Assembly (NCBI GenBank): GCA_015680905.1 | Contig: CM027381.1 | Location: 82,547,501 to 82,611,500 of the forward strand | From: Coptis chinensis | Taxonomy: Eukaryota; Streptophyta; Magnoliopsida; Ranunculales; Ranunculaceae | DNA: 64,000 bases | Direction of reading: 5' to 3' | Shown here: one piece after another, positions 14,208-45,512 of the stretch | Numbering within the stretch: position 1 is the first letter of the stretch | Layout of the letters: every line of letters starts with the position of its first letter | Position numbers and translations under genes: made by a program | The notes under the pieces: generated by a model | Databases searched by the model: none | What the model was told of the DNA's origin: nothing | What the model saw: the letters and a program-made list of their open reading frames with translations, nothing else

Positions 14208-14890
14208 TCACAATCCACGTACTGAAGGAGCCTGCGAACAAGAATTGATGACCTGCGAATAATGTTGCCAACATGGATGGCTCTTTGTAATTGCAGGCTG
14301 CCCAAAAGGGTGTTGCTGAATATACTTTTGAACATTCTCTGATGTCGCTACTCCATCCAAATACATCCTAATATCACCCCCATGTCCTAACGAATTGTCG
14401 TTCTTATCACGGATGTCGTATGAAGTAGGGAAGATGGCAGTGTGTGTGGGATTAAGCAATGCTTTATAAGGAGAATCATCGACGAGGAGACTGTTCGATT
14501 CATTGTACTCTCTCTTCTCCCAAGGAAGATTTGGGTCATCCTTATCCCAAAGTTTGACAAGTTCTTTCAACATCAAAGGCTTGTCATTGTTCTCAACAGT
14601 GTAAAACCCAGTAGTAGAGCAATGGGATTGGTCCCAACAAAACAACAATTGGGACTTCATATAAGCCCATGGCAATATTGAGCACACCGTCCAAATTTCA
14701 TTTTGTCCTTGATGACCAAACACCAACATTGAACCTTTGAAAACAAAACTTCAGGAAATCAACACAGATGACCTCTTACATATTGCCTTTCCAGAAATGA
14801 ACTTGTCGGCAATACAATTTGAAGGAAGGTCAAACTTGTTACCTATGTGAAGAAGCAAACCATTGACATCAAGAATGAGAAGTTTTCGCT
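14208..14890 (-). pseudogene. FCP1-like HAD phosphatase fragment
   Basis: Related plant proteins are haloacid-dehalogenase-type phosphatases with an FCP1/NLI-interacting-factor homology domain. The nucleophile motif reads R-K-L-L-I-L-D-V-N-G-L-L near 14887-14852. It is followed by a block in another frame, F-Q-R-F-N-V-G-V-W-S-S-R-T-K near 14740-14700, and then L-L-F-C-W-D-Q-S-H-C. Further on come K-P-L-M-L-K-E-L-V-K-L-W-D-K and the acidic motif L-L-V-D-D-S-P-Y-K-A-L. The end resembles the family's C-terminus (Y-I-Q-Q-H-P-F-G-Q). At least two frame changes and an in-frame stop break it. It runs without visible introns. It lies directly downstream of locus B on the same strand, which suggests capture or a local insertion. 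Confidence 0.8.
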
Positions 14891-15205
14891 TTGTTTTTTG
14901 ATCGGTGGTCTTTCAATGAGCAAGCCTTCCATATTCTCCGATTCGAGCTCTTTCTTTTTGGTGAGAAATGTCTCTCGGTAATTCCACAATTAGCATCGCT
15001 TTGTCGCATCATCACCCTTTTCATCCACATCCATTCCTTAACCGTTACAATATCGGCTTGTTGGCCCCTGTTAATATTAGGTGAAAAAGATAGGTATATA
15101 ATTAAGCTATATAATTAGGGCTCTATAATTAAATGTATTAATTAAAACTTATATAGTAGGAGCAATGTGAGGAGGACTTACATTCTTGATGTCAATGGTT
15201 TGCTT
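14853..15205. repeat. 25-bp perfect inverted repeat, 303 bp apart
   Basis: Bases 14853-14877 are the exact reverse complement of 15181-15205. The left arm is the HAD nucleophile motif of the phosphatase fragment, read on minus. The right arm sits at the end of the coiled-coil exon, where on minus it encodes E-K-Q-T-I-D-I-K-N and runs into the donor gtaagtcc. A 25-bp perfect match is far beyond chance at this distance. Confidence 0.9.
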
Positions 15206-15735
15206 TTCCCACTCTTCTTCGGTCCTTCTTTTCAACTCTTCCTTGAACTTTTCATTTTCTTCTTTGCACAATGAAGTTCTTGTTCGTGTGTTGACCTTCT
15301 CCCTCAACTCTTCCTTGAACTTTTCATTTTCTTCTTTGCACAACAGAAGGTCTTGTTCGAGTGTGTTGACCTTCTCCCTCAACTCTTCCTTCAACTTTTC
15401 ATTTTCTTCTTTGCACAACAGAAGGTCTTGTTCGAGTGTGTTGACCTTCTATTCCAACTCTTCCTTCAACTTTTCATTTTCTTCTTTGCACAAAAGAAGT
15501 TCTTGTTCAAGTGTGTTGACCTTCTCCCTCAACTCTTTCTTCAATTGTTCATTTTCTTCTTTGCACAACAGAAGGTCTTGTTCGAGTGTGTTGACCTTCT
15601 CCCTCAAAATTTGGTTCTCCAGTCTTATTGACATGGCCTCATCATCTTCTTCAGTCATAGGCTGGACAATCATTTCTTGATCAGAGGGTACAACGCCACT
15701 GGATATGTTCTACAGGAATGCTATTTCATCATCTG
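15181..15735 (-). CDS. Coiled-coil exon with five 25-residue repeats (locus B)
   Basis: A Glu/Lys/Leu-rich minus-strand exon reads V-I-V-D-V-E-G-I-T-D-D-E, then M-S-I-R-L-E-N-Q-I-L-R-E. It then has repeats of the type L-R-E-K-V-N-T-L-E-Q-D-L-L-L-C-K-E-E-N-E. The repeated unit is 75 bp; the landmark ttgaccttct starts at 15291, 15366, 15441, 15516 and 15591, exactly 75 apart. The predicted product is a long parallel coiled coil, probably for dimerisation. One stop lies in the leading part and one unit has a small frame change. The exon ends at a good donor near 15180. The plus-strand Ser/Phe-rich frame here is its antisense shadow. It most likely belongs to locus B, whose preceding small exons end in the same V-V-P-S-D-Q peptide. 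Confidence 0.65.
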
Positions 15736-15802
15736 TTATACCTTCGACATCAACAATTACCTGATAAAGTTCAGCATCAACAATTAGTGTTTGAAATTTG
15801 GA

Positions 15803-16506
15803 CCATGAACAATCAATGTTCATACTCTTATTGGACTATGAACATTCAGTGTTCATTCCTATTTGGGGGTATGAACAATGATTGTTCATAACCAGTTTAG
15901 TGGTATGAACAATATTTGTTCATAACTATTTTTGGATATTAATAATACTAATACTATAGTATATTTATACACTAATACTATAGTGTGTATTTATACACTT
16001 CATATAGGTTGAAATATACCTGATCAGAGGGTACAACGTCACTGGATATGTTCTGCATCAATGCTATTTTCTCATTTGTTATAGTTTCGGCATCAACAAT
16101 TACCTGATAAAGTTCAAAGATCAACAATTAGTGTTCGAATTTGCACCATGAACAATCAATGTTCATACTCTTATTGGACTATGAACATTAGGTGTTCATG
16201 CCTATTTGGGGTATGAACAATATTTGTTCATAACTACTATTGGATATTAATAATACTAATACTATAGTATATTTATACACTAATACTATAGTGTGTATTT
16301 ATACACTTCATATAGGTTGAAATCTACGTCGGAGGGTGCAACGCCCTTTGGATATGTTCTGCAGCAATGTTCTTTCCTCATCTGTTATAGCTTCGGCATC
16401 AACAATTACCTGATAAAGTTCAGCATCAACAATTAGTATTTGAAATTTGGACCATGAATAATCAATGTTCATACTCTTATTGGACTATTAACATTCAGTG
16501 TTCATC
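15803..16506. repeat. Clusters B-D of ATGAACA palindromes
   Basis: Four palindromes lie at about 15805-15925, three at about 16148-16232 and two degenerate ones at about 16454-16505. They have the same 7-8 bp arms as cluster A. They ride on the tandem exon duplication, so copies 1 and 2 share the order of centres. All are in intronic sequence of locus B. Confidence 0.8.
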
Positions 16507-16808: not shown

Positions 16809-18656
16809 GATCGACTTTTAACATGTTGAGTCTTTGTGCTCGAATTGTCCAATCAATTTCTTGATTCCATCTCGCACACCTTGGGAATTTTCTTTCATGA
16901 TTTTCCACCTTTTTAATGAGTGTGGTGTGCTCACATATCCAAAACTGCAATGTGTGTGATGAAACCCATATTTAGTGATAAAAATGTTATACAAACAGGC
17001 ATTTACAAAGATTTCATATATGAACAATCATTGTTCATACTCCACCAATTGTTATACAAACATACAAACATATATATTAAGGAGATGCAGTTGAAATACT
17101 ATACCATAAACATTATTGTGCATCCATCCACTCGATCGTCTTTATCTTCGTCTTTTTGTGCTTTTTGGCTGCAGCAATCAATTCGTCGTGTATGGCATTG
17201 GGCCAAGACAACTTTCTCAATGATTCCAAGTCTTCTACAGCCTTGATTAAGGGCCAAGTTACTCTGGAATTGGCGTTAGTAAAGAAGCAAGTGGTGAACA
17301 TGTAAAGCGACATCAGCCTTGAGAAATCTTCAGCTGCATGTTCATCATTTGTCTCATTCAAGGTCTGCAATATTGCACCCCTTATATCAGCCTTGTTGAT
17401 TACTAATTTCTCCCCACCACCCAAGTACTTTGATATGAATCTTGTTTGGTTATCTTTAGAACCAATAGTCTCTCGTTGGATTAAAAACATTTCTCATTCT
17501 GTGCAGCCTAAACATTAGACTTATCTCCTCATAAGTCAGCTTTAAACTTTTTTCATCTATCTGAAATTCATTAGAGTTGAAATCATATTTGTCCAAGAGA
17601 TAAAATATTTCTTTGTTGGGCTTGTTTACGTTACCTTCTACAATCTCCCCTTCCCACAATGCTTTAAACAACAACCAGAATGGTGTCTTCTTCATTGCCT
17701 CAACATAATTTTCTGGAATTTTCTTTTCCTTTAGAAGTTTCACTAGTTTAATCATACAGGAGAGGCTGCTTCGCAGCTGAGGTGCCTGTGCCTTGGTCGA
17801 TACTAGTTCCTTTCCCTGATCTTCCTTCTCCTCCTCTTCATTCTCCTTTTCACTCTCCTCTTCTGCCTTCTTTTTAGAAACTGCTTTCCTACTCTTCTTT
17901 TTAGGAACTACTTTGCTGCTTGACTCTTTATTCCTTTTCTTGGTAGGAGTGCTACTCGATTCTGGCTTCTGTTGCTTAGTTGCAGATTTCGAACATGCTC
18001 TTTTCCCTGGGGACTTATTTTTCTTTGATTTGTTCTTCCTCTTTAATTTGCTTTTCATCCCTTGGAGTAATTCCTACAAATAAATGAACAAATAAATGAA
18101 CGTCAGATATCGAAATTAAAAAATAGCAAAGTACCCTACAAACATTAGTCTGTTGATGTATGGTCAGGTATGAACATTCATTGTTTATAGTTCAATGGTA
18201 TGAACACTGAATGTTCATAGTCCAACAAGAGTATGATCATTCAATGTTCATAGTCCACTCTATTATATGAACACTGAATGCTCATAGTCCAACAAGAGTA
18301 TGAACAATGAATGTTCATACATATATTTCATAACATTCATATCCTAACATGTAAACTGTGCAAGTTACCATGAAAATCCAAATAGTGATATGAACAAATA
18401 ATGTTCATATCTTTTTCTAGCCAAAAAATCACAAATTTCAATAATTATAACATGAAAAATATAATTCAACATCATTGAAATGTACCCATAATGGTAGTTC
18501 GCCTTCTTCCCCGTTCTCAAGTTGTGAAAATAACACAATTTGTTGGTCTAATTTATCTTGGTGTTCTTCACAATAAATTTGATTTTGAAGACTTAGATTT
18601 GTGCAATTTTCAGTGTTGCATGTGTTCTCTTCAGTCCGCAACGGTGATTTTGACAT
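16809..18656 (-). CDS. N-terminal part of Ulp1-type locus B
   Basis: Exon 1 (about 18656-18486) begins M-S-K-S-P-L-R-T-E-E-N-T, or further upstream at 18779 in a Lys-rich leader. It ends at donor gtacat in phase 0. Exon 2 opens at 18073 after tttgtag, also in phase 0. It encodes a very basic region (K-L-K-R-K-N-K-S-K-K) and an acidic Glu run. It then has the conserved motifs T-P-F-W-L-L-F-K-A-L, L-L-D-K-Y-D-F-N and L-T-Y-E-E-I-S-L-M-F-R-L. Later pieces give V-I-N-K-A-D-I-R-G-A-I and S-W-P-N-A-I-H-D-E-L-I. An exon at about 16945-16809 gives Q-F-W-I-C-E-H-T-T-L and F-P-R-C-A-R-W. This order is the plant transposon Ulp1 N-terminal (DUF1985-like) architecture. The W-x-x-E and P-R-x-x-R-W motifs are diagnostic. 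No protease domain follows; the HAD fragment lies where it would be expected. One in-frame stop near 17110 and frame changes near 17480 suggest decay or mis-called introns. Confidence 0.65.
17022..17042. repeat. Single ATGAACA palindrome
   Basis: An isolated perfect copy with centre atcat lies in the presumed intron just upstream of the W-x-x-E exon of locus B. Confidence 0.8.
18169..18409. repeat. Cluster E of ATGAACA palindromes
   Basis: Six copies, some with one arm mismatch, lie wholly inside the predicted first intron of locus B (18074-18485). The linker gtccaacaagag occurs between copies more than once, so part of the cluster grew by tandem duplication. Confidence 0.85.
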
Positions 18657-28759: not shown

Positions 28760-31700
28760 TTCAATCTTCTTCATCCTGATTTAGGTATATATTGTGTTTT
28801 TTTTGTGTATATATTGTTATATACTAGTTTCAATTATATAGTAGTTCTAGATTATATACTAGTTGGCGTTTCTTATATACTAGATTCAATATATACTAGT
28901 TCTAGATTCTCGTAATTATCTAACAATATAAGAAATCACTTGAATGTCGCATGCATTACTGCCAATCTTTGCATAGTTACTATTATATGAATTTTGGTTT
29001 GCGTTAAAAAGAACAAGACAATAGATAGCGTACCTGAGAATGCTAAGAGTTTCACTTTGTGGTTTATATATATAATCGAATCTATTTATGTCATTACATG
29101 AAAGAGAAGCAATTTGGAGATATACTAGGATGCAATCCTTACTTTATTGCTTACAGAATAGGTCAAATATTTGTAAAAGAATGAGGCTTAGAAGAAAAAA
29201 AGCATTTGCTGCTCCAAATCTGAAACACGATTTCTTTTTCAAGTCTCTGTATTTTGTAGTAGTGACAATGACATTATCCAAAAAAAAAAGTAATAGATAC
29301 GAGGATGCCTCTGCTGAAAAAAGTAATGTGAGTGGTTTCTAGTGTTAATGCTCGATAGAGAACAGTTTGAGGAAGTTTATTTATCTAGGGGGTTGATTTG
29401 TTTTAGAGCTTGGAGTAGATTTTGATTCTATTGGAGAGTGAAAGATCTTTCAAATGAATTTCATAGGATTGGAGGAAGAGATCGGGGAGATAGCAACTTG
29501 TATGGTAGGGTTCACGCCCGATTGATTTCGAGTTTCTTCATAATGCCGGCTGCAGTATTTAAGTAGAAGTAGAGTACATAACAGATTGTACCTTTGTATC
29601 CTGAATTGCGGATGTTGAAGGCAATGTGTTCTATCGGTTGATGGGAGGAGTATCCTCTTTGATCTTTTCCGAACCCGTTTTGTTCTTTTGGTAGGAGAAG
29701 TTTTAGTGGCATGTTAGTGAGTATATATACCACCGACGCGCCTAGTGAAAATGTGGGTTATGGAAGTTGGTTTATCGTAAATTTGGAAGAATTATAACAT
29801 GTCAATTATTATTGCTTGGGTCGTTTCAAGGCATTATTTGCCGCTTTGAAGGGAAGGATTGGGTATGTGCAAAACCAGAAAAGAAAAAAAAGAAATATGT
29901 TTAATTGGATCGGGGCTTGAGGAGTTCAGGTAGGGCCTCTCAGATCGACTTTGTTCATGTCTTGTAGTTCGGGCCTTTCGATTGAATTCTACAGAGGCTA
30001 GGAGGCCTCTTTTGGGATGGTTTGTTAGGTGGGCAATGATATGGTCGGGCTCCAAATATTAGTTTACACCGGAAATTGTTTTTCCGGGCAACAATTGTTT
30101 TCAATCGAGGGGTTGTTAGAAGGATCGCTTTCTTTGTGTTAATTATCCAGATCTGAAAATAATGCTTTGAAACAAATGATGATTTTGCTTTTGTTCCCTG
30201 TTTTGAAAGGTTAAAGCAGTAACACTTGGTTGGTCGATAGCTAAGACAGATTGGGGTGGCTAGGAGGTTTTTCCTCATCAGCCCCGTCTCTAATTACTTT
30301 CACCATTTTGCTAGTGTAGTAAACTGCATGCAGTGTCGGTGGCTAGAAGGTTCTTGCTCTCGAAAAGCTCCTTCTCTTATTTACTTACTTATCGCCACCA
30401 TTTTGAGCCCTTGCTTTCGTGTTGTGTCGATTTTAGAAACTTATTCAGAATTCCTTTTGGATAGTAGTCTTGCATGAGCATGAACACCTACTTAGTTTCA
30501 CTTTCACCGTAAGTCGGGGAGAGTTGAATTTTGGATGATGCTCTTTGGAGTAGTGAGTAAATAAAACCTCCGGTTAAGTAAAAGTGTGCAAAGATCTTTC
30601 GCATGAATGACAAAGCGTTTTGCTATTCCATCAAATGCTTCCAATCAAAAATAGAATCAGATATCATTGTCTTCAAGAATGACAAGCAGAGGAGTATGTC
30701 AAGCTTGAATAAAAATTGTAAAATGAACTAGGTAAAAGAGGTCCGAGATTGTTGTGGTTCACTTGAGTATCGCTTGTAGAGATTAATGGTAAAAGAAAAT
30801 AGTAAGTGTATTATGAAGTGTTCAAGCTTGGTGGAAAGTGTGTAATAGCTTCGTTTTCGGGTTGTTAATATAATTCGTGATAGCTTCACTATTTGAAGAA
30901 ATAACTATTTGTAAATTTGTACAAACAACCAATAAGATAAATTAAAAGGCTTGCCTTCATATCGGAGTGACAGAAGTCGTTGAAGGGCATTTCCTTGAAG
31001 CCTTAATGGAGATTCATAAGCTTTGCCTTCTCGCAAGTCATGGTGTAAGCCTCCACCGCCTTCTAAATAGTTGTGCATTCAATTAAATTTCGACAATACT
31101 TGATGGTACTCGGTTTTCAGAGGTATTAACTATTAACTCACCTATTAAGGAACAGTTTACAACCGCAATTATGTAACTTGGTTCTCGGTTATGCATCCTT
31201 GTACTGGACACGCACCTTAGTTTCAATTCTTGATTGTGTGACATCTAAACTCTCGGCAACTGGTTTCTACTCGACGGATCATTTAGCGTGAAGACAGTTT
31301 GCCGGGGGTTGGGACTTGGGAGTTTGGGACATGGGGTTGGCCAATGCTAGGCTTCGAATGCAAGTCTCGTTCGAAATGTGAGGTCCTAGCCCGCCCAAAC
31401 AGCAGAATAACAACCTCAGTATGGATTCAAATCCTTTTACCAACCTTAATAGTTGAAATGGAAAAACTACCCTCAAAACCACAAATGAAGTAAAAAACAA
31501 AGAAAGGTTATATTCATCCGATTGCGATTTGGGATGTCCGATTTGTTTTCCTAAATCACGGTGTTGGACATCGAACTTGATTTTGTTACAATTCTTGAAA
31601 ATGACTTGTTTTCTTCTTTTTGAGTTTTTTTTTTCTGGTAATCAAGGATCACAATAAACTCGTTTGTTCTGAAAATACAAATTCAGATTCAATTGTAAAT

Positions 31701-32900
31701 TAGTTTTTCAAGCAATGTAAATTCAGATCTCATTGGAATCTAATTTTTGGTGCATTTCGATTTAAGATTGGCCCCAAGCTAAATATTTTTGTGGTATGGT
31801 TAGAACTTAGAAGAGGGTGACAATGTGTCATAGCATCAAGGTGCACCTGCTGTTATAATGAGGCTTTCTCTTTTGAGGATCAATACATTAGGGTTATGTA
31901 TCATAGATCAAAGACTACTTTTCGGATAGGTGACAAGCGAAATACATTAGGGTTATTCTCTTCTTTTGTCTGCTTCTTTATTTCTTATTTCCTTGTTTCT
32001 GTTTCTGGTGTAATCTACATGTTTGAGTTTGAGTTATATGTGCGGATAATGAATTTAGGGGGAAAGGTGCTAGTGGTTGGACTTTGCTAGGATTCAAGCC
32101 CAAGAACTTATTCGACTTTCTATGTAAAGAAACCTTTTTCTTTGATCATGAATGATGAATATGAAGTTACTACTTGGGGGAAAGCTACTTTGATCATGAA
32201 TGATGAATGATGTTATAAGAGAAGATACTTTTACCATTTTATGATTAGTGTTTACGACATTCATTTACTCACCCTTCATAATCGCTTATGTTCTTGAGTC
32301 TTGGCTAATGAGTAATGACCTTGATCACATGCAGCTTTTACGAAAGTACTTGCTTAAGGTCGGATCTGAGGGAACAAAACCGGGCGGTAAAGCATTATAG
32401 GTGAGAAGCTCTTTCTTTGGTTATCAAATTTTACATGAATGTACAATCAAGGTGGTTTTTGGGTGGTTTCCCTATACTTGACGAGGGGAGTCAAGTTCAT
32501 TTTGTCAGAGAGAGTCCGGTTATTTTGTTGTAATACTTGATGTACATAAATGGCGGTTCATAAAAGCTTGATCTTATATATATATACATTTTGGTAATCG
32601 TGTAAAAGTTAGGTTATATGTACATATGGTTGTTGGAAGGATGTCATTATTGATTTCCGTGTTATGACAGGTTTAAGTATACTGAAATGTTGACCAAACA
32701 AAGGAAAACGCCTCAAAAATTCGATAGAATTTGGATAGCTTAACGCCTCATTCTATTTCTTCATATATACTTGGAGTTATCATAGCATGCTTATAAGTCT
32801 ATTAGTTTTAATGAATCGAGATGATCTCTTTTTTCTAGTGGTTTTCTTTGTACATTGTTTATTTAAATATGGTTTACTAATACTTGTTTTATTTTTCTTT
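28760..32900. other. Long interval without a supported gene
   Basis: About 4.1 kb of AT-rich sequence with only short unrelated frames. It shows TATAC/TAGTT-rich stretches near 28790-28910 and a duplicated tactttgatcatgaatgatgaa word near 32138-32215. It may contain the 5' region of the mobile-domain gene that follows. I see no RNA gene, terminal repeat or coding family here. Confidence 0.4.
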
Positions 32901-32903
32901 GTA

Positions 32904-35290
32904 GCGATGGGTCCTCGATCAAAGAATGTGAAGAATGTAGCTTAAAACTACATTAAAGGGTGTTAAGAAATTGTTTGGTGGCGGTTCCTCTAGCGGTGAT
33001 GCAGTTGGAAGAAAAGACATGGCAGACGGCTTAACCAAGCATCGGCAAGTAGAGGGGACCATTTGGAAAAAGAGGTTCTTGAGGTTCCTGAGGTTGATTC
33101 GTTTAGTGAAGATAGTGTAGATAGTGTAGATAGTGATACTAATGTAGGTTTAGATGTAGGTTTAGACAAAGGGAAGAGTATAGTAGAAGAGGAGAGTGAG
33201 AGTGAGGAGGAGAGTGAGGAGGAGAGTGAGGAGGATGATGAGCAGGATGATGATGTTGAAGAATATGTGGTAGAAGACGTACCACCAGTGGAAGAAGCAC
33301 CTCCGGTATTGGATTTCGTAAGAAAATCCAATGATGATTTGGAGTTTCAAAGAGGTGTGTATGGGGGAGGCCCGTATGAGTCAGAGTTGTTGTATGACTA
33401 TGACGTGCATGTCGCTCGCGATGTTTGGGAGAGAAGGGTAATATTTTGTTTTTCTTGTGTACTTTGATTTTCTTTTACAAAATATTTTGTTTCTGTTCAT
33501 ATATATCTAATCGCGCTTTCGGTTGTTTTGTGAGGATCGCTGAGCGCTTGAAGTGTGTTTCACACTTAGCCGGTTATCCCAATGGAATTTCAAAAATGAA
33601 TGTGAAAGGTCTCCGAGATTTGCCGTTGTTGAGAAAGATCGGGTTGTTTGATCTCGTGGAAGGTTATCACGAGCATATGGATCCACCATTGATCTCGGCG
33701 TTTGTGGAGAGATGGCATCCGGAGACCAACACCTTCCATATGCCGCTTAGGGAGATGATGTGACTTTGGACGATGTTGTCCAAATCTGTGGAGTCACAGA
33801 TTAGAGGAAGAGCGGTGCAAGGGGACAAAGCTGAGTGAACTTACAATAATCGATAAATCTCTTTACATCTTGGTCCGGGGCTCCCCTATTGATTTGATTA
33901 GGGCGGAGATGGAAGCTAGCAGGGTTCACTTCAAAAGTAAGGCTAGAATTCATCCGGAAGCATTTTGCTAACAAGATTCATGATAGCCCTATATGTGTTT
34001 GGCATTGAATGTGGTAGAGAAGGCCTCGAAGTTTCCTGGGATGTTCAACGGATTGTTAGAGCTTTTATTCTCGTTTTTCTTTGGATGTGCCATTTTACCG
34101 ACAAGTCCGGGACTGGAGTGCCTATATGTTATCCTCGAGGCCGTTGTTGAAATTCAGTGAGATAGAAGAGTATGCATGGGGTGCAGCAATTTTGGCGCTT
34201 TTTTATATAGAGGTCTCGGGGCCGCCACATGTGCTAAGGTGAAAGGGGTTACAGCTATATGACTCTTCTACGTAAAATTTGAGTATTTTAGAGTTTATTT
34301 TTTTAATGTTAATTTTATTACTCTATCAATATGTTAACTATTTGTGTATATCTAGGCATGGATCTATGAGTATTTTCCGGTATTCATGACAGTCCCAAAT
34401 TTCAACTATATCTCGTCTCACCAAGCGTGCTCATAGACACATCCCGCCGCTCCACACTATTACGACACAACAACGCGATGCATTGCAGTTTTTATCGGCG
34501 ATAATTGATGATTTGAATGAGTTCAATGTAAGTATTAAATTCAATGACAATTTGGTATTTAAGTTTGTTTATATTTATTTTTTAGTAATTGATCATTAGA
34601 GTTGTTAATGACACATTTGATTTTTTGTTTCAGTTGTTTGGCATCCCTACAAAAATATCGTGAGATACAAACCCGATCGATGACATTGCATTTTTTTGAG
34701 GGATTGCTATGTTTTTCAACATTGTCGAGCTTTTTACTGCCGCAAAGGGTGGTGCGCGGTTGGGTTACGTGCAACTTGTACCTAAAGATCCTCCAATGCC
34801 AAATTGGAGAACAAGAACGTGGCGGGGACGCTGGTATGAGGTGAGTGGACCAATATTGGGCCACTTTTATCGAGTCGTGCGTAAGAATCACGTGATCCAA
34901 CTCGCAACCGAGGACCTATTTCATCTTATCCATGGGAGTGTCATCAAAACTACATGACTTGGTATGCGAGGAATTCTCATGTAGTTTTGGTGAACCCCGA
35001 GCTTCTTCCGATTCATCCCTCCCCGAGACACCGCCTTAACCGCTTTTCACCGATTGTAAGTATTGTGATTTTTAATTGAGTTTTCTAACCGCTGTGATTT
35101 TTGCATTCGATTGGTAACTTATCTTGATTTTTCTTTTTTCGACAGAACGACGTCATCGATGAAACCAGTCGTTTGCTAGAGAGAGGTCTGCAATTGGCTG
35201 GGAATGATATGCCAGAGGAAGCAAGGTCCTCATTCGAACAGGCATACAACTTGACTAGGTGCAAGTACATTGGTGGGCGCTATAGTTGAT
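32904..35290 (+). pseudogene. Plant mobile domain (aminotransferase-like/MAIN-type) gene, decayed
   Basis: After an acceptor (ctttgtag) the frame opens M-G-P-R-S-K-N-V-K-N-V, then breaks. A long acidic exon (33063-33438) has S-E-D-S-V-D-S-V and Glu runs and ends W-E-R-R at donor gtaata. The next exon (from about 33535) carries the diagnostic block L-V-E-G-Y-H-E-H-M-D-P-P-L and F-V-E-R-W-H-P-E-T-N-T-F-H-M-P. It continues, frame-shifted, into V-T-L-D-D-V-V-Q-I-C-G. Further blocks are T-D-K-S-G-T-G-V-P near 34090-34125 and E-Y-A-W-G-A-A-I-L-A near 34168-34200. The end is L-E-R-G-L-Q-L-A-G-N-D to C-K-Y-I-G-G-R-Y-S, stop near 35289. Plant mobile-domain proteins occur in host silencing genes and in transposons; this copy is probably transposon-borne. 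It has several frame breaks. Confidence 0.75.
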
Positions 35291-35645
35291 TTGTTTCAGT
35301 TTAGGATTTGTAACTTTGTAATTTAGTTTGATGGATGTAATTTGTTTCAGTTTAGGGTTTGTAATTTTGTTAACTTCGAATGAATTGATGGATATGATGT
35401 TTGCATGAATGTTTGAATGGAATTTAATGTTTAGGGTTTAGGGTTTAATGTTTGAATGTAATTTGTTTAAGTTTAGGGTTTAATGTTTGAATGGAATTTT
35501 ATGTATGGATGAATTTGATGAATGAGAGTGTTTGATATCTAATGTTTGAATGAAAAAGTGGAATTTGATGAATGAGAGTGTTTGATATTTGATGTTTGAA
35601 TGGAAAAGTGTAATTTGATGAATATGAAAGTGTTGTAAAACAAAA
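35291..35645. repeat. TTTAGGGTTTA-rich and 50-bp tandem repeats
   Basis: Variants of tttagggtttaatgtttgaatgg recur between 35351 and 35490, including a short telomere-like tttagggtttagggttt. From about 35517 a unit of about 50 bp (gatgaatgagagtgtttgat...) repeats two to three times. No gene. Confidence 0.7.
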
Positions 35646-35667
35646 CTAATTTTGAAAATTTTTCTTC

Positions 35668-35935
35668 CAAACGACCTACCAAGATCGTTTGGCATAAAGG
35701 CCAAACGACCTCAGAGATCGTTTTTCCTTTATACCTAAAACGACCACGCGCAGATCGCTTTAATCTCTCAATTTTGACCAGCCAGATCGTTTGGTGTCTA
35801 AAGGCCAAACGACATAGCCACATCGTTTGGTCTAAAGGCCAAACGACATGACCACATCGTTTTCCCTTTAGACCAAACGACGCCGGCCGGGTCCGTTTTT
35901 GTATTAAAGCCAAACGACCTCACCGTAGTTTCGGT
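35668..35935. repeat. 34-bp dyad array L, about eight units
   Basis: Units start at 35668, 35702, about 35737, about 35771, 35806, 35840, 35874 and about 35911. Each has the form CAAACGAC-N8-ATCGTTTG plus a linker near gtctaaaggc. The 24-bp core is an imperfect palindrome, and spacing is 34 bp for most steps. The same core and period recur at 39439-39702 and 40931-41960. Confidence 0.85.
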
Positions 35936-35999
35936 CATTATTGACAACATACTTAACGTTATTTCAAATCACTTTCGACAAGGGTCCGAATCAACTAGT

Positions 36000-36330
36000 C
36001 GATCACTCGATTGCCATCCGAATCAACTTAGTCGATCATTCGATTTCAAAATCACTCGATTGACGTCCGAATCAACTTAGTCGATCGCTCTATTTCCAAA
36101 TCACTCGATTGCCGTCCGAATCAACTTAATCGATCACTCGATTTCCAAATCAAATCAAATAAAAGCCTTAACATTATTTCCAAATAACAAAAAAATAAAA
36201 TAAAATTACATTTGTTCCAAATTACATCAATATATCACTTAGTCGATCGCTCGATTTCAAAATCACTCGATTGCCGTCCGAATCAACTTAGTCGATTACT
36301 CGATTTCCAAATCAAATCAAATAAAAGCCC
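36000..36330. repeat. 49-bp tandem repeat and larger duplication
   Basis: The word atcactcgattg begins at 36002, 36051 and 36100, 49 bp apart. The unit contains ccgaatcaacttagtcgatc. A second block at about 36237-36330 repeats the same unit, followed in both blocks by ttccaaatcaaatcaaataa and a similar AT-rich tail, so the block itself was duplicated. It lies between array L and the transposase gene. Confidence 0.75.
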
Positions 36331-36445
36331 TAACATTGATAACATAAAAATCAAATCAAATTACACTTGTTCCAAATTACATCAAAATACAAATTACATC
36401 AAAATATCATATCGACAACATACAAACAACTTAGTCGATAACATG

Positions 36446-39200
36446 TATCATTGGTCTTCAACAAGCTCCTTTTCCCATATTAAATTGGGAATGTTCAATG
36501 CCATAAATTGCAATTGCCTTACTGTCAAGGCCAAATTCCAACTTTCAGCAATATCATATCGAGCTCTAAGCCATTGGCGACATCGAGGAACCGGACAATC
36601 TTCAACAAGTTCAACATTGACAAAATGATTTCCACCAACATGCGCTTACCCAACACTTGGGTCACTCTCTCGGGATTTGCTTGGGTTCTCAGCGGCATGA
36701 GAAGGAAGCACCGACGAGCTCCTAAATGCATAAGGACAACATTAAATCTTGAAGCAAATAAGTATCCAAAGAAAAGGCATGCTCATCCACTTATTTAAGG
36801 GTGCGTGAACCTTCTTCATGTAGGATTTCCTTCATCGAATAAAAACCTCACTTTGATTGTACAAAGTACAATAAAGGGGAGGTTGTCAAGAAGCTTTTCG
36901 TGACAACTCCCTTCTCATCCGTGGCCATTCTTCTTGACTTCTTCCTAATGCAATGCAGAAAGCTTCTATACCGCAGTTGCCATCGCCAACGGTGGTCATG
37001 GACTCTAACAATGTATTTATGCATTTCTTCAGAATATCCAACCCGTAATCCTTAGGACCCCTCGCCTTTCCAAAGTCTAAGCCATCTCTCACATTTCGTG
37101 GTGTGACTGTTTTTGGAGAAGGCTTTATTTCGTGGTGTGGTTGTTTTGGTGTTTTTGGGAGAAGGTTTATTTCTTGGTGTGGTTGTTTTGGTGTTTTGGA
37201 GAAGGCTTATTTGTTGGTGTGGTGTGGATGTTTTGGATTGGTAGTTTTGGAGAAGACTTCTTTCTTGGTGTAGTGTGGGTGTTTTTGGGTGGGATGTAGT
37301 GTTTGGTTGTGGACGAGACCCACTCTTCATGGTCACGTTGAGAATGTTCAAAATGAGATGGATCTCGCTTTGAAGAGTTATCATCTCCGGTTTGAAGCTT
37401 TTTTGCGGCTACCTACCTTCGGCCGACCTTTGGTTTTGCTTCCTCACAAGGCGGTACTAGCCATGTACTTTCTCGGTACGGCAATCTCCATAAGCTTCCT
37501 AATCATAACCCCGCTCTTCTTCTTCGTAAAACCATTGCAAACCTATTCATGAACAAGTCCATCGAAGGTGCAACATCGGGACCAACACCCACCGACACAT
37601 TGGGAGAAGGCATAATGTTTTTCCAAAAGGGGTCGAGAAGCAGACAAAGGGATGGACCGCTCTTGCTCTTCAAACTCAATTAATTCATGAGCACATGGCA
37701 GTCCATGACTTCGCGGGCGCAAATAGCACCAACACCTTTATCTCCATCTTTAACACGCTTTACGCGGGTATCTATTTCTTCAAATAACAAGTCTAAACAC
37801 TTGCGTGAGACAAGGCCTCGAAGTTCACGAAACAAAGGAATCCGTGGTGGTGGTGCTGAAGTTACAATCATACTTCTCGTCGAAGGTAGCTCTAATCTCG
37901 ACATCCGGATCTCTAGAATCGGGTGGATTAAGCTAAACATACTCAAAAAATCATGACAGGTTGCATTTCCTAGTACACGCTTCACCGGAGCATGAGACCC
38001 TTCAACTCTATTGGTCGTTGTACTCCAAAGTGAATGTGTTGGTCGGGTCCCAACAACATATGAATCGATCCCCGTGAGGAAACCAAGTCTCTCGCAAATA
38101 ACAAACAAAATGGAGTAGTCAACCCCGTAATATTTTTCCAAAGTATCCCATCTACTGGAAAATAACCTCTCATCTTCGATTTGACTACGGTGTTCCACGA
38201 AAACGGGGCCTTCTACAAGTTCTGTAGTTGGAAAAATATCGTAACATTTTGAAAGGACGACGCGCGAGCGATATGCCATCTACATAGATGCTTGTGTGCG
38301 TTAGGAAAAACTCTGTCACCGCACTCATCGGCTAAGTCCCCGCCGACCACGATCACAGATGGGCTTATGTCACCAAGCAAACCACTAAAATGATGCAGGG
38401 CCCACTCATAGTCGACTGTTGTCTCAGACTGAAGCAGCACCTGACACACGGTGAAAGATTTCCACGTTGAAGTCACCCCTACAAACTGTACGAAAGGGCC
38501 ACCGATACACCGTTAGTTTTGTAGGTAGCGCCTAACATGAAAAATCGTTGAAAAGTCCGAGCCAACTTAACACCTTCTCGGATGGGCCCATAACAATCCG
38601 TTATCTCCTCGGTATTCTCATCCTGTCTCAACTCCTCAAAATAATGTTCTTTTGCTAACAACTCACGCAATCTCAGAATTGTGTGAGACCGCTCATATCC
38701 AATTTCCTCACCTTCGCCTTTGCGGTAGACTTGGGATATACTAGAGATGTTATCATGATACCTATTCTTGATGGAATCCAATATTTGTTTAGGTTTTATT
38801 CCACACTTACTCATCTCGACGACAAATACTTTAACTCGAACGGTTAGTCGAAAGTAGCAAATGCATGTCCTTCAAGGGTCTTCGCCAATGGATGGTTGTG
38901 AACACCATTAAGAATCGACAATTTTCCAACTATCGACAAGTCTTGCGTTTGAAAATACCTTTTAACTTAAATGGACATCCCGATTTCTTGGTTCCCCGAC
39001 CTTCTCTTATTAGCCTTCTTCTTCCTTCTTGTGTGACCGATACACACCCGAAAGCACTCGCAAGCCAAATTCAATCTTGCTACTCGGTTTCCTTTGGCAC
39101 ACTCCGACTTTTCAATGACCACAACAACATTAACTTGTCTTCCTCTAGCGGTTGCCCAATCGATTGCCTCGCTACGTGTATGAAAGACCTAAACACATAA
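36446..39200 (-). pseudogene. MULE transposase with FAR1-like and OTU segments, decayed
   Basis: Reading right to left, 39200-38830 is a FAR1-like DNA-binding segment (S-E-A-I-D-W-A-T-A-R-G-R; K-S-G-C-P-F-K-L; G-V-H-N-H-P-L-A-K-T-L-E-G-H) spread over three frames. Then 38814-37680 is the Mutator-like transposase: F-M-L-G-A-T-Y-K-T-N, S-T-W-K-S-F-T-V, D-Y-E-W-A-L-H-H-F, L-C-R-W-H-I, T-N-R-V-E-G-S-H. The family normally has L-D-A-T-Y-K-T-N, so the first catalytic aspartate is replaced by glycine. The usual T-D pair before the second conserved D-x-x-L-A is G-G. An OTU-type protease segment follows at 37000-36886 (T-T-V-G-D-G-N-C-G-I-E-A-F). The end near 36446 reads M-A-L-N-I-P-N-L-I-W-E-K-E-L-V-E-D-Q. 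Transposase plus OTU is a known plant MULE architecture. It is non-functional as it stands. Arrays L and M flank it and may be its terminal regions. Confidence 0.8.
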
Positions 39201-39438
39201 AAAACAACAACTATTATTAATACACTAATAAAATTATATTTAGAAAATTTAAAAAAAAAAAATGAAATCAATGCCTACTCAATCATACCTCTTCTCAGAG
39301 TAAAATTTCTGTTGTATCACTTAAAATCGGTTGACAATCCACATCATTCGAGTTTGCAGAAGATCGGTTCCCCGGATAGCGCAAAGAATTCTACATATAG
39401 AAGAATAAAACAAGAGTCTCAAACAATGCATTTAGTTT

Positions 39439-39702
39439 CAAACGAATCCAGACCATGTAGTTTCATCAAGAGTCCAAAACGACCCGCCATGTAGTTCTAT
39501 AGTGTAATGAAACGACCGCCATGTAGTTCTATAGTGTAATGAAACGACCCAGCCATGTCGTTCAGTAGTGTTCTCAAACTACACCACCATGTCGTTCAGT
39601 AGTGTTCTCAAACTACACCGCCATGTCGTTCAGTAGTGTTCTCAAACTATGTGCCCATGTCGTTTGATAGTGTTCCCAAACGACCCAACCATGTCGTTTG
39701 GG
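39439..39702. repeat. 34-bp dyad array M, eight units
   Basis: Units start at 39439, 39475, 39509, 39541, 39575, 39609, 39643 and 39677. The core is CAAAC(G/T)AC-N8-GT(C/A)GTT(T/C)-N with a linker near gtagtgttct. It sits upstream of the MULE reading frame, opposite array L, as expected of terminal or subterminal repeats. Linker sequence differs from arrays L and R. Confidence 0.85.
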
Positions 39703-39709
39703 CTCGGTT

Positions 39710-40130
39710 TTGCATTCATTCATTTTGCATCCATTCATTCATTCATTCAATCAATCAAGTGTTTTGTATTCATTTTAATCAAGTGTTACCTCATTATTTA
39801 GGGTTTGCATTTTGTCGCCGACGATTTCTCGAATTTCATTTGCTTTCGACTTGTCGATCTTCAAATTCTTCACCTTGACCTTCAACATTTTGTTCCACTT
39901 CTTCACTTTCAACATATCTTCTATTTTCTCCTTCTCTAATTTGTTGTTCTTCTCTAATTTGTTGTTGTACATCAAACATTACCTCAAATACTTCTTCTTC
40001 ATCTTCATGTTCCATTTAGAGAAACTTGAGTGTAGAGAAACTTGAGTATGTAAAGAAACTTGAGTATGTAGAGAAACTTGAGTATTCTATGTAAACCCTA
40101 AACTCTAAACCGAAAGTGAATGAGTATTCT
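39710..40130. other. AT-rich interval with short tandem words
   Basis: Contains cattcattcattcatt (39719-39750), a duplicated ttcttctctaatttgttgtt and a triplicated gagaaacttgagta (40020-40085). No gene; the Asn/Lys-rich minus-strand frame is low complexity. Confidence 0.5.
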
Positions 40131-40740
40131 ATATATATTTGAAATTTTGATATATTTCAATAATTGAGTGAAATATATTTGTAAACCCCCAAACTAGTTT
40201 ATTATTTACAATTGAATAAAAAAATGGAAAATAACAAGTTTAGATATAAAACAGATTATTATTTTAGATTTGGATAATTTAGTGAAATATGTTTGAAATT
40301 AAATTTTTTTATGTCTGCATTTAAATTTGTAAACCCTAAACCCTAAACCCCAAACCCCAAACCCCAAAACCCCAAACTAGATTATGATTCAAAATTGAAA
40401 AAAGAAAATAAAAAATAATAAGTTTATAAATAAAACAAATTATTATTTTGAATAATTAAGTAAAATTTGTTAGCACGAAATTTGTAAACAACTCTAAACC
40501 CTAAACCCTAAATCTCAACCTAGTGTATGATTCACAATTTTAAAAATAAAATAAAAAATAACAAATTTAGATATAAAACAAATTATTATTTCAAATAATT
40601 AAGTGAAATATGTTGGTACTAAATTTCTAAACCTTGAACTCAACTCTAAACCCCAAACTAGTTTATGATTCACAATTGAAAAAATAATAATAATAACAAG
40701 TTTAGATATAAAACAAATTATTATTTTAGATTTTATAGCA
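40130..40740. repeat. Four degenerate tandem units with CCCTAAA-like tracts
   Basis: Four units of about 125-170 bp each have the order gaaatatgtttg, an aaaccctaaacccc-type tract, caaactagtttatgattcac, an A-rich block, and aaacaaattattatttta. The telomere-like tract varies in length and is longest near 40332-40378. These are short interstitial degenerate copies inside a larger unit, not a telomere. Confidence 0.75.
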
Positions 40741-40930
40741 TGTTTGATTACATGTTTTAACTTGGTTATAAAGATACTATGTCATAACAGATAAAGAGTG
40801 TAGAGTGCATGTAGTTTTATTGATGTAATTGTGTTGTTTCTAACCCAATTTTTTAAATCGGATTTCAATTTTTCTAATTCAATTGAAATCGCTTTGAGCG
40901 CATTTGGAATCGTTTGAGTGCGTTGTGTCA

Positions 40931-41960
40931 TCGCCGTTTGAGTGTACACTCAAACACGTGACCAAGTCGTTTGAGTGTATACTCAAATTACATGTCCAAG
41001 TCGTTTGAGTGTATACTCAAAAACTACATGGACAAGTCGTTTGAGTGTTACTCACACTAACACACAAACTACGCGGCCATATCGTTCGCGGCCATGTCGT
41101 TTGAGTGTACACTCAAACTACGCGGCCATGTAGTTTGAGTGTACACTCAAAACTACTCGGCCATGTCGTTTGAGTGTATACTCAAACTACATGAACCCGT
41201 CGTTTGAGTGTTACTCACACTAACACTCAAACTACGCGGCCATGTAGTTTGAGTGTACACTCAAACTACGCGGCCATGTCGTTTGAGTGTATACTCAAAC
41301 TACATGAACCCGTCGTTTGAGTGTTACTCACACTAACACTCAAACTACGGCGCCATGTTGTTTGAGTGTACACTCAAACTACGCGCCATGTAGTTTGGGT
41401 TTACACTCAAACTACCGCCATGTCGTTTGAGTGTATATTCAAACTACATGAACCCGCCGTTGAGTGTTACTCACACTAACACTCAAACTACGCGGCCATG
41501 TCGTTTGAGTGTACACTCAAACTACATCGGTCATGTAGTTTGAGTATACACTCAAACGACATGGCCGCGAAGTTTGAGTGTAAACTCAAACGACATGGAC
41601 ACGTAGTTTTCGTGTTAGTGTGAGTAACACTCAAACGAATTTGTTCATATCGTTTGAGTATACACTCAAACGACTTGCCATCTAGTTTGAGTGTAACTCA
41701 AACTTCAAAGTAACACTCAAACGACATGGTCATGTCGCCTGAAAAGTGTACACTCAAACGACTTGGCGAAGTCGTTTTCGTTTTTCACTCAAACGACATG
41801 GTCATGTCGTTTTACGTTTACTCAAACGACAGCGACCACCATGTCGTTTTGAGTGTAAAGAAAACGACCGCCAAGTCGTTTGAGTGTACACTCATCGATA
41901 TGGTCGTGTTGTTTGATTGTAAACGTAAACGACCGGAGGGTTCGTTTTGGCAATACCGGT
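40931..41960. repeat. 34-bp dyad array R, about 30 units with an orientation switch
   Basis: The basic unit is CAAACTAC-GCGGCCAT-GTCGTTTG plus linker agtgtacact, 34 bp. The linker and its flanks form the perfect palindrome GTTTGAGTGTACACTCAAAC, so two different dyad centres alternate. Longer linkers with gttactcacactaac appear near 41045, 41205, 41315 and 41465, making a higher-order pattern. To the left of about 41520 units read ...actacgcggccatgtcg...; to the right they read as the reverse complement, ...cgacatggccgcgaagt.... No coding potential. Confidence 0.9.
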
Positions 41961-42320
41961 TGAATTGGTTGCTGGGCTTGGGCTTTATGGCAAATTTGTA
42001 ATATGGCAAATTTGTAAAATTTCTTTTTTTTTGAGGGGTTGCCCAATCCAATTTGATGAGTGCCCAATGGAATCACCAAACCAAAATACGGCAAGCCGGT
42101 CATAATGTACTATCACTACCCCACTTCAAGACAATAAAGTGTGGCACGTCCCACTTCCTATCCAATTTTAAAAACTCAAAATCGGCTGGCCGGCCTTAAA
42201 ATTCTTTTACCTATTTAATTTTTTCCTTCTTATTCTTATGACCAAACAAGTTCCAAACTATTGTACTTTTACAACTCTATTATTTTTAGCCTTTTAGCCG
42301 ACTACACACAATCTATTAAG
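41961..42320. other. Interval without a gene
   Basis: A duplicated atggcaaatttgtaa word near 41988 and 42002, otherwise plain sequence. Minus-strand frames here are shadows extending into array R. Confidence 0.4.
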
Positions 42321-42334
42321 TTAAAACATTATTT

Positions 42335-43065
42335 CTGCCAATAAATTCCGCCCTTCCGCTAATAATTTTTGCCAATTATTTCCGCCCTTCTGCCAATAAT
42401 TTTCGCCAATTATTTCCGTCAATAACTTCTGCCTTTCCGCCAATAATTTTTGTTAATTATTTTCGCCAATAACTTCCACCCTTCTGCTAATAATTTTCGC
42501 CAATAATTTTCGCCCTTTCGCCAATTATTTCCGCCAATAACTTCCGCTCTTCCACCAATAATTTTTGCCAATTATTTATGTCAATAACTTCCGCCCTTTC
42601 GCCAATAACTTCCGCCTTCCGCCAATAATTTTGGCCAATTATTTCTGTCAATAACTTCCGCTAATAATTTTCGCCAATAACTTCCGCCCTTCCGCCAATA
42701 ATTTTGGCCAATTATTTCCATCAATAATTTTCGTCTTTTCGCCAATTATTTCCGCCAATAATTTTTGCAAATTGTTTTCGCTAATAATTTCGCAAATTGC
42801 TTCTACCAATGATTTTCGCTAATTATTTATGTTAATAATTTCCGCCAATAATTTTTGCAAATTATTTTCGCCAATCAACTTCCGCCGATAATTTTAGCCA
42901 ATCAACTTTCGTCAATAATTTTCGCTAATTACTTCCGCCAATAATTTCTGCTAATTATTTCCGCTAATAATTTATGCTAATAATTTTTGATAATTATTTC
43001 TGCCAATAATTTTTGCTAATTATATCCGTCTTTTGTCGACAATAATTTTCGCCTCCTGTCACCGC
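42335..43065. repeat. Short-period (GCCAATAATTTTC)n array
   Basis: About 730 bp consists almost wholly of degenerate 12-19 bp words such as ccgccaataattttcgcc, gccaattatttccgcc and caataacttccgcc. Every period places TTCCGCC or TTTCGCC before an AATAATT or AATTATT core. The sequence is strongly strand-biased (pyrimidine-rich CGCC on plus). No coding frame. Confidence 0.9.
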
Positions 43066-43189
43066 CTATTGTCGCCTTTAATAATAAGATCACGTACGCC
43101 AATACTTGGTGACATTTTTTATATTATATATTTTTTTCTTTTAAATCAATGTTTTTCTATTCTTTTTTCTATATTAACTTCTTTGCCAC

Positions 43190-43700
43190 ATGGGCTTTGC
43201 CCATCCACCAAAGAGAGGGCGATGTATAGACCCCCACTTTGTGGCTCATTAAGCCCACGGATCCAGCCCAAATCAATTAAGCCTAAGGGCTTAATCATAG
43301 TTACACCTAATAACTAGTCTATTTAATAATATGTCCAGGTTCATTATTGTAGAAAGATAAAGATAAAAGTTTAAAGAGATAACAATTCTTGTGACACAAA
43401 CAAACACAGTCCTCTTAGGACTCAACCTAGTCATATAAAAACCATTTTTTCTCATAATGTGAACTACGTTGAAACTTGATCCCTAGAGAATAGATCTTGG
43501 AATGCGATTATCGCGACCATTATCTTGGTTCTGTTTCATCTCCCCCAACATCAATTTCCTCTGTTTCTTAGTGCGTTCTTTGTCATTTGCTCTCGTTGTG
43601 TTGAAGCATGTTATTGCCGAAACAACAGAGTCTAGGTGGTTTGGATTAAGTTTTGCCATCTTAGTGTGTTTTTGCTCTTTGGATTTTGGGATCTGACTGT
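43190..43700. other. Interval upstream of the spliceosomal pseudogene
   Basis: Possibly includes an intron of the duplicated host gene, since an acceptor-like cacttcag at about 43708-43715 precedes the first recognisable exon. Nothing else recognised. Confidence 0.35.
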
Positions 43701-43714
43701 GTTGCTCACTTCAG

Positions 43715-44775
43715 GTTCTAGTGGGGGGTGGGCGGGCAAGAGAAGGACCCCTTTGTGATAAGCCCATCAAAAATGTGAAATTCAAGATTGTTGATGCGAA
43801 GATCGCTTAAGAGCCCTTGCATAGGGGTACTAGTAAGATCATTCCCACTGCCCGAAGTGCTTTTCTGATGGCAACACCTAGGCTTATGGAACATGTTTAT
43901 TATGTAGGTAAGTCCTTTCTTTTTCGTTTTCTTTTTTTTTTTATGGAAACAAAAAGGTCTATGAGCAAATACTTAAATTTCACTCCATATGTTATTTTCG
44001 CTGCCCAGTGAGTTTGTTAAGCTTTCCTATGTATTGTTTCAGATATATACAAACCCCAATTGATTGTGTATCTGCAATCTACACAGTATTATCTCGTCGT
44101 CGTGGACACGTGACTGCTGATGTCCCTCAGCCGGGTGCCCCAGCTTATTTAGTCAAGGTTGGTGGTCAACTAATTTTTACTATACATAAATGAGCTACAT
44201 ATATACATGAACCAGAATTGTATACTTCTGCCTCCATAGCATGTTCTATTTTTTCGGTTAAATCATGCATTCATGTCGTACAGACCTTGAATATCTTTTC
44301 CTTTAAGTAAACCTTATTGCAATGTTATAGTGTCATTGTTAACCAGGGATTTCTTGGTCTTCAAATTTTTTTAGGCATTTTTACCAGTCATAGAATCTTT
44401 TGGGTTCAAGACAGACTTGTGGTACCATACTCAAGGCCAAGCGTTTTGTATTTCTGTGTTTGATCATTGGTCTATAGTTCCTGGTGATCCCCTTGATAAA
44501 AATATTGTTATCCGACCTCTTGAACCCACTCCAATACAGCACCTTGCCAGAGAATTTATGGCAAAAACGAGACATCGCAAGGTATGGTTTCTTTTAGCAC
44601 AAATTCTGCTACATGGGTCTGTCCACGCTCCATCTCTAGGAATGGTGTTTTACTGAAATCTTTGTTGTTTCTGACAGGGAATGAGTGAAGACGTGAGCAA
44701 CAACAAATTCTTTGATGAATCCATGGTGGTGGAACTCGCTCAACAGGCTGCCGATCTTCATTAGCAGATGTTGTG
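43715..44775 (+). pseudogene. CLO/GFA1-like: C-terminal part of U5 snRNP GTPase (Snu114/EFTUD2/CLO-type)
   Basis: The intact protein is the EF-2-like GTPase of the U5 snRNP that controls spliceosome activation. Four exons are visible. Exon a, about 43740-43907: E-G-P-L-C-D-K-P-I-K-N-V-K-F-K-I-V-D-A-K, then R-L-M-E-H-V-Y-Y-V. Exon b, 44043-44157: [19 protein letters not shown]. Exon c, 44375-44581: [19 protein letters not shown] and I-V-P-G-D-P-L-D-K. Exon d, 44678-44775: G-M-S-E-D-V-S-N-N-K-F-F. Introns are retained with GT-AG ends, so it arose by genomic duplication, not retroposition. An in-frame TAA near 43807, an apparent 2-bp shift at the start of exon b, and TAG in place of a Gln codon near the end mark it as a pseudogene. 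The GTPase domain is absent. Confidence 0.92.
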
Positions 44776-45119
44776 AACGTTGCTGAAACACCGAGCCGAG
44801 AGCCAATCACTTTACTAATCTCCTATGGGTTATGTTCAGTTAAGGAATTTTTGTTACGTAAGCTTGTTTTTGATATCTTACAATCCCAAGGTTATGATGT
44901 AAATGACCTGTATATGGCTTTCTTGTACAAGTAGAATGGGGGCATTTGTTGTCTTCTACAGTGTATATTGTTATTTCACATCCTAGCACCTTTTAGTTGT
45001 TCTATTGTGTGATTTTCGCTCTATGAAATGCAATCCATCCTGTTTTATTCCAATTTCTCTATGAATTTTATGATGGGAAGTCTGCTAAGCACGACTGTCA
45101 AACAAGAAGGTGACCTGTA
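44776..45119. other. Probable 3' flank of the pseudogene
   Basis: Continues from the stop without recognisable motif; likely the duplicated 3' untranslated region and flank of the GTPase gene. Confidence 0.45.
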
Positions 45120-45512
45120 AAAAAAAAACGGGCCAGAAAATTCCATTTTTTTAAAAAAAATAATAAATTATTACTAACGGATATAGAACCGTTACAAATT
45201 CTTCATCCAAATAGTTATAGTAACGGAATAGCAAGCGTTAGAAAGGACTAATTACTAACACTTTTATTTGTTGGGAATGAATGAAGAACAAAATTAATAA
45301 CCGTTACTAATAATTTACTAACGGTTGATATGTATTACTTAAATTAATTTTAGTAACACTTGATAACAGTTAGTAAATTTTCTAACACTTGATAACCATT
45401 ACTAATATTCGTTACTAATATTTGTCACGCAATTGTGTCAACGCAAGATAACCGTTACTAATATTTTTTGTAACGGATGTATATCCGTTACAAATAGACT
45501 GTTATGGTGTAG
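45120..45512. mobile_element. CACTA-type non-autonomous element or end fragment
   Basis: The right end reads, on minus, CACTACACCATAACAG, the hallmark CACTA terminus, ending at 45512. About nine ccgttac/gtaacgg words follow inward between 45170 and 45490 in both orientations, typical of CACTA subterminal repeats. One near-palindrome lies at about 45469-45492. A matching left terminus is not clear; the left edge near 45120 is an A-rich stretch followed by ccagaaaattcc. No coding capacity. Confidence 0.75.

Follow-up and report, generated by a model that had tools for sequence, protein, structure and literature searches.

The region analysed is a 64,000-nucleotide window of the Coptis chinensis genome (contig CM027381.1, positions 82,547,501 to 82,611,500), from which, together with the published literature, all conclusions below are drawn. 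Its GC content is 0.38 and it holds numerous pieces of transposable elements (TEs), among them the decayed transposase gene of a Mutator-like element (MULE) and three arrays of short palindromic repeats, L, M and R; L and M lie on either side of this gene and R to the right of M (Table 1). The MULE transposase domain, by which a Mutator-like element is recognised, was found between L and M, where the open reading frame (ORF) at 38213-38512 matched PF10551 with an E value of 3.3e-10 (40.7 bits, above the cut-off of 27.6) and the whole frame with one of 1.1e-8. This agrees with the first-pass annotation, in which L and M were said to bracket a MULE. The other pieces of the transposase gene had no match in Pfam; an OTU-like C-terminal part and FAR1/SWIM-like parts had been suspected by eye, no such match was obtained for the pieces, and neither is claimed.

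On the opposite strand, to the left of L, a likely plant-mobile-domain (PMD) gene was recognised by a partial PF10536 match at about 33671-33757 (E 1.5e-6; 28.1 bits, under the curated cut-off of 34.9). By eye, these two genes appear to converge on L, their 3' ends flanking it, with M lying upstream of the transposase. MULE groups with a PMD gene, also in antisense, have been published (MULE-Solanaceae_1 and others, in a table of PMC6446971); as in MULE-Solanaceae_1, the transposase here is on one strand and the PMD gene on the other, and arrays are not mentioned in the parts of that source consulted. The Pfam frame scans around the arrays covered the minus strand at 35401-36400, 36401-39400 and 39401-40940, the plus strand at 32401-35400 and, in one frame, at 35401-36400, and both strands at 28801-32400 and 42001-45500. 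Rfam at gathering scores and ARAGORN gave no match in the window.

When the window was searched for the dyad CAAACKAC-N8-RTCGTTTG with up to two mismatches, 43 matches were obtained on both strands, corresponding to 23 distinct plus-strand places, all of them within L, M and R, compared with 0.13 ± 0.42 matches in 100 dinucleotide shuffles. The arrays proposed in the annotation are therefore real, and their coordinates were right. A looser scan (up to three arm mismatches, spacer of 5-11, without a chance control of its own) detected 45 dyads, 39 of them in the arrays (L 6, M 8, R 25). The proposed distance of 34 bp between most units held only approximately: exact 34-bp steps made up 13 of the 36 within arrays (L 3/5, M 4/7, R 6/24) and steps of 32-37 bp made up 26 (L 4/5, M 7/7, R 15/24), R having in addition five steps of 44-45 bp.

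At the level of half-sites (up to one mismatch), the share of steps with a change of orientation was 11 of 12 for L, 45 of 52 for R and 5 of 10 for M; taken together, the arrays are a ladder of 8-mers, most of them inverted relative to the one before. With the arrays pooled, the commonest spacing was 16 bp inside the dyad (20 of 31 plus-to-minus steps) and 18 bp across the linker (18 of 30 minus-to-plus steps). Four R linkers gave a half-site spacing of 29 bp, that is, 11 bp more; this is the sole other hint for the helical phasing put forward earlier, an argument that is weak, and it may be one ancestral event copied by duplication. Over the whole window 315 half-sites were counted, 77 inside the arrays and 238 outside, against 218 ± 15 when the entire window was shuffled 20 times in blocks of 500 bases, so their number outside the arrays is at or slightly above chance. 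Among the 47 array half-sites with the exact context CAAACxAC, the CpG was kept in 27, T (a transversion) was present in 18 and A in 2, and CAAATGAC was absent; CpG transition products are thus rare in array half-sites. The ratio of observed to expected CpG was 1.47 in L and 1.40 in R, both above the 95th percentile of sliding windows (1.31 and 1.21, respectively), compared with 0.69 for the window. As a signal this is weak, because M (0.99) was not above its percentile and the motif itself contains a CpG.

For the comparison of arms with linkers, only selected units of strictly 34 bp were used: L contributed 2 of its 6, M 4 of its 8 and R 7 of its 25. Excluded were units that had indels, were truncated, carried the 21-bp linker or had no linker after them and, in L, those whose linker is inverted. 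Between arrays, the mean identity was 12.4/16 for arms and 2.0/10 for linkers in the L-M comparison, 12.9/16 and 1.0/10 in L-R, and 13.1/16 and 4.4/10 in M-R. Fisher tests on the rounded means gave 0.014, 0.0008 and 0.046, respectively, for units that are few and related. Within arrays, linker identity was 10/10 in L, 9.0/10 in M and 9.4/10 in R, arm identity was 15.0/16, 13.5/16 and 14.8/16, and the dyad centre was the most variable part (6.0/8, 5.0/8 and 6.1/8). Therefore, the arms are conserved between arrays, as the annotation had held for the core, and the linkers are locally uniform. This uniformity applies to the strict units: the L linker occurs in both orientations, inverted by eye in 2 of 6 recognisable copies, and the 21-bp form in R was found at five places, once inverted.

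A linker private to each array, as had also been claimed, is safe for L alone. Those of M and R have AGTGT..CT in common, a weak likeness that 241 of 5000 shuffles equalled, and an alignment of M with R, cores included, spans 199 columns at 68% (E 6e-10). A relationship between the linkers of M and R is thus possible, perhaps through one ancestral linker, which would in part count against the annotation, where descent of all three from a single linker was named as a refutation; the L linker is clearly apart.

Array R is a fold-back structure. The arms 41200-41307 and 41531-41638, both of 108 nt and with 94% complementarity, belong to the 25 longest inverted pairs out of 277; long inverted arms made of tandem repeats are a feature of fold-back elements. 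Folded as RNA, 40945-41944 reached -578 kcal/mol, compared with -269 ± 8 for shuffled sequences (n = 20; z -37); the z values for L and M were -8.0 and -3.3. In the left part of R, copies 1 and 2 of a higher-order repeat were identical in 112 of 114 columns, and each matched copy 3 in 107 of 144 (manual division). Slippage plus inversion at palindromes would explain both the higher-order repeat and the fold-back. The near identity of copies 1 and 2, the flipped L linkers and the 5-nt gap at the R inversion centre would also suit a neutral, satellite-like expansion of palindromes, growing by template switching and slippage without any protein. This is improbable, as such growth does not predict that arms are retained and linkers replaced between arrays, nor that 10 bp is the commonest linker length despite the unrelated sequences of L and R. 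The folding energies might instead indicate that R, and to a lesser degree L and M, is transcribed into a long hairpin feeding the silencing of its family, a very unlikely account, given that palindromic repeats fold automatically and that a preference for arms over linkers is not expected from it. A small-RNA hairpin and a set of protein target sites can, however, coexist.

To score polarity, a template with CAAACGACATGG as one half and CAAACKAYGYGG as the other was applied to the listed dyads with an 8-bp spacer, which number 25 of the 39. The three L units all had one polarity, in one case by a single point, and the five M units all had the opposite one. In the left part of R, 7 of 12 were like M, 2 tied and 3 were opposite by one point; in the right part, 2 of 5 were like L and 3 tied. 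The pairwise score of M with the reverse complement of L was 33 (shuffle maximum 26). On these letters, L and M lean towards being inverted relative to each other, with their perfect half-sites outward, which favours the earlier suggestion that they are subterminal arrays of the MULE.

The same lean, together with the single giant hairpin that R forms through its long inverted arms, would be expected if L and M were tandem-repeat terminal inverted repeats (TIRs) of the MULE and R a related non-autonomous fold-back element, the repeats being transposon ends instead of regulatory targets. Published MULE families with TIRs of short tandem repeats offer precedents in Muta1 (PMC5225508) and Tm1 (PMC3169594), whose terminal tandem repeats are inverted between the ends, as described in those sources; by analogy, they are the closest structural match for R as a hairpin. 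Unlike the arrays here, their repeats are of 12-15 bp, with target-site duplications (TSDs) of 8-9 bp and with dyads undescribed in the parts consulted; the 34-bp units also exceed the 9-15 bp subterminal repeats given for Aedes aegypti MULEs (PMC5225508). As R has no exact TSD of 8 or 9 bp and none of 10-11 bp with one mismatch, only two 9-bp pairs with one mismatch each, as its polarity is inside-out compared with L and M, and as L apparently lies between two 3' gene ends, we regard this explanation as possible but doubtful.

A second dyad, TATGAACA-N5-TGTTCATA, unrelated to that of L, M and R, was found in 23 copies in the window, compared with 0.06 expected, and 16 of its 22 steps were of 30-38 bp. 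By eye, the dyads at 15804-16506, 17019 and 18169-18409 lie in or between exon-like stretches of the minus strand. Two unrelated dyads of similar period in one window are a further point that neutral expansion does not predict. By analogy, the locus resembles VANC/KIU genes with intronic target repeats and is at most a candidate member. In KIU (Kaonashi), a VANDAL with a captured Ulp1 domain (PMC13317346, as far as consulted), the parallel is that the TATGAACA dyads share strand and stretch with a weak Ulp1 match, which is about 8 kb from the gene of the system and only putatively linked to it. The locus differs from KIU in that DUF1985 reached E 0.096 in one ORF, did not appear in either the frame scans or the joined query and is not claimed, in that the Ulp1 frame has stops, and in that no MULE transposase was seen there. 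In the frame scans the lysine-rich part matched PFF1_TM (E 7.9e-4, below the cut-off).

Table 1. Positions of the repeat arrays and gene remains within the 64,000-nucleotide window.
Feature	Position	Strand	Remarks
Array L	35668-35935	-	6 detectable dyads CAAACGAC-N8-ATCGTTTG; linker GTCTAAAGGC; polarity leans opposite to M
Array M	39439-39702	+	8 detectable dyads; linker GTAGTGTTCT; upstream of minus-strand transposase frames
Array R	40931-41960		25 detectable dyads; linkers AGTGTACACT and a 21-bp form; fold-back array
R inversion centre, near 41530	41479-41581		arms 41479-41527 and 41533-41581, 49 nt each, 96% complementary, 5-nt gap
Higher-order repeat, left part of R	41114-41483	+	Tandem Repeats Finder (TRF): period about 113 bp, 3.7 copies, 84% matches; three units with 21-bp linker
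Decayed MULE transposase gene	36450-39190	-	frames broken; limits by eye; PF10551 at about 38267-38506
Likely PMD gene, decayed	32912-35288	+	antisense to transposase, left of L; limits by eye
TATGAACA-N5-TGTTCATA array	1348-1564		7 dyads, 30-38 bp apart
TATGAACA system, clusters	15804-16506		9 dyads in three clusters (4, 3, 2), repeated along with an exon-like stretch
TATGAACA system, lone dyad	17019-17039		
TATGAACA system, array	18169-18409		6 dyads; by eye, in an apparent intron of a minus-strand gene
25-aa peptide repeats	15232-15607	-	about five 75-bp tandem repeats, coiled-coil-like, within exon-like stretches
Ulp1 (Peptidase_C48), weak	6887-7195	-	E 8.3e-4, 19.7 bits, cut-off 20.7; two in-frame stops

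Several other features were observed around the second system. At 15678-16505 there is a tandem repeat of a stretch of about 340 bp that contains a dyad cluster as well as an exon-like piece (84% over 525 columns), and a weak NIF-phosphatase match (E 9.1e-4, below the cut-off) at 14208-14912 on the minus strand adjoins the peptide-repeat exons. Between the TATGAACA arrays, at about 5880-6047 on the plus strand, the transposase-associated domain PF13963 was matched at E 0.043, below the cut-off; we take this domain to accompany CACTA-type elements, and this match leaves a weak, open possibility that the locus is another kind of DNA transposon. A zinc knuckle (zf-CCHC) was matched at about 519-566 on the plus strand (E 3.1e-5), and a 413-bp tandem repeat of 3.8 copies occupies 8396-9945.

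Around L, M and R, 49-bp tandem repeats of CGAATCAACTTAGTCGATCACTCG.. lie just inside L (36002-36320), and weak telomere-like TTTAGGG and CCCTAAA repeats were seen outside L and M, at 35289-35500 and 40331-40728, in opposite orientation. To the right of R, at 42332-43030, there is a CGCCAATAATTTC-like array with a 13-bp sub-period, to which TRF also assigned a 34-bp period and in which no dyad was seen by eye. Further on, broken plus-strand frames at 43739-44500 matched EF-G domain V (E 9.4e-7) and domain IV (E 1e-4, below the cut-off), with no GTPase domain beside them in the scanned frames; these may be a piece of a host gene or a captured fragment. Among viral contigs, the CAAACKAC-N8-RTCGTTTG core was found in two, in both as the same single hairpin word without an array, and was rejected as a candidate; the word of the TATGAACA system had one match in each of four contigs. 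For one transposase ORF, four stretches of viral contigs matched the pattern and none was confirmed. A literature search with the motif letters returned a lone occurrence, taken as chance.

The closest known system, by analogy, is that of the VANC-target arrays of Arabidopsis VANDAL MULEs, in which tandem short motifs occupy noncoding regions and introns (PMC5735166, PMC10398659). As reported there for VANC21 and VANC6, the targets are dense arrays in noncoding MULE DNA, upstream of the transposase gene and in introns; they turn over fast, with repeat units diverging together and another motif in each TE family. Short motifs densely packed in tandem within noncoding TE DNA are also a feature of L, M and R, and of the TATGAACA system, whose TE nature is less sure. 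Short interrupted repeat cassettes (SIRC; PMC10342631) are likewise found in TEs, including a VANDAL3 copy, and some are palindromic; according to that source their repeats are interrupted by diverse sequences, whereas the strict-unit linkers of L, M and R are nearly uniform within each array. A literature search on MULE and VANDAL arrays found no description of this array type in the sources as far as consulted, and one may exist elsewhere. By this comparison, placement and turnover are similar to those of the VANC targets, and the palindromic dyad ladder is the difference.

We interpret L, M and R as clustered target sites for a putative DNA-binding protein of one MULE family, with a probability of roughly one half. 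The binding unit would be the half-site CAAACGAC, with variants CAAACTAC and CAAACGAT; two inverted half-sites would make a dyad fit for a dimer, repeated about every 34 bp. Candidates for the protein are a transposase acting on subterminal sites or a VANC-like anti-silencing factor acting on noncoding TE DNA. The arrays may have grown, and their linkers been locally homogenised, by slippage or unequal exchange, as the higher-order repeat in R suggests, with inversion at palindromes as a further source that could account for the flipped L linkers and the R fold-back. This interpretation draws on dyads far beyond chance, on arms kept while linkers turn over and on the 16/18-bp ladder; on the MULE domain between L and M, the antisense PMD gene and the opposite polarity of L and M; on the rarity of CpG transition products; on the TATGAACA locus, with its similar build, other word, intron-like placement and peptide repeats; and on the precedent of VANC.

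Several results weigh against it. Motifs of VANC21 (YAGTATTAY) share one orientation, according to PMC5735166, a property that the alternating half-sites of L, M and R lack, being inverted dyads on a ladder of about 34 bp; in M, this alternation itself was found in only half of the steps. No VANC gene was identified at L, M and R, the weak hints being confined to the TATGAACA locus, and DUF1985 had no match in the scanned frames around the arrays, the element being decayed and 40941-42000 outside the scan. Within arrays the linkers are no less uniform than the arms, so arm conservation is visible only between the three arrays. The polarity templates were picked post hoc, with the units already viewed, and the inversion of L relative to M is no more than a lean, since the direct L-M score of 28 also exceeds its shuffle maximum (25). 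In R the perfect half-sites point inward, the reverse of L and M, so R is not a simple deletion derivative; among its 17 units, 5 tie and 3 point against their own arm. As to the ends of the element, no TIR outside the arrays was clear of shuffles in eight comparisons (two of them L versus M), the AAACCCTAAACC-like flanks scoring 40 against a shuffle maximum of 40 (n = 60). No clear TSD was found for L-M or R; the L-M flanks share 25 exact 9-mers, counted without a chance control and not assignable to any boundary. The subterminal position of L and M therefore has the polarity lean in its favour and neither a TIR nor a convincing TSD; VANDALs may be without TIRs (PMC6446971).

That one window holds two unrelated words on similar ladders suggests that the build may persist as the word changes. 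It is conceivable, though unlikely as it stands and by analogy only, that each of several TE families in this plant has in its noncoding DNA a palindromic word of its own, that these words recur on a shared ladder of about 33-34 bp, and that each is recognised by a dimeric protein of its family, either an anti-silencing factor or a transposase. The work on VANC anti-silencing was done in Arabidopsis, and the part of the protein that sets the target was left there for future study (PMC5735166, as far as consulted); the array build described here is testable in any plant genome with methylation and DNA affinity purification sequencing (DAP-seq) data. Family-specific words on a shared ladder, if real, would amount to a VANC-like system built on palindromes, its sites multiplying through palindrome-driven inversion.

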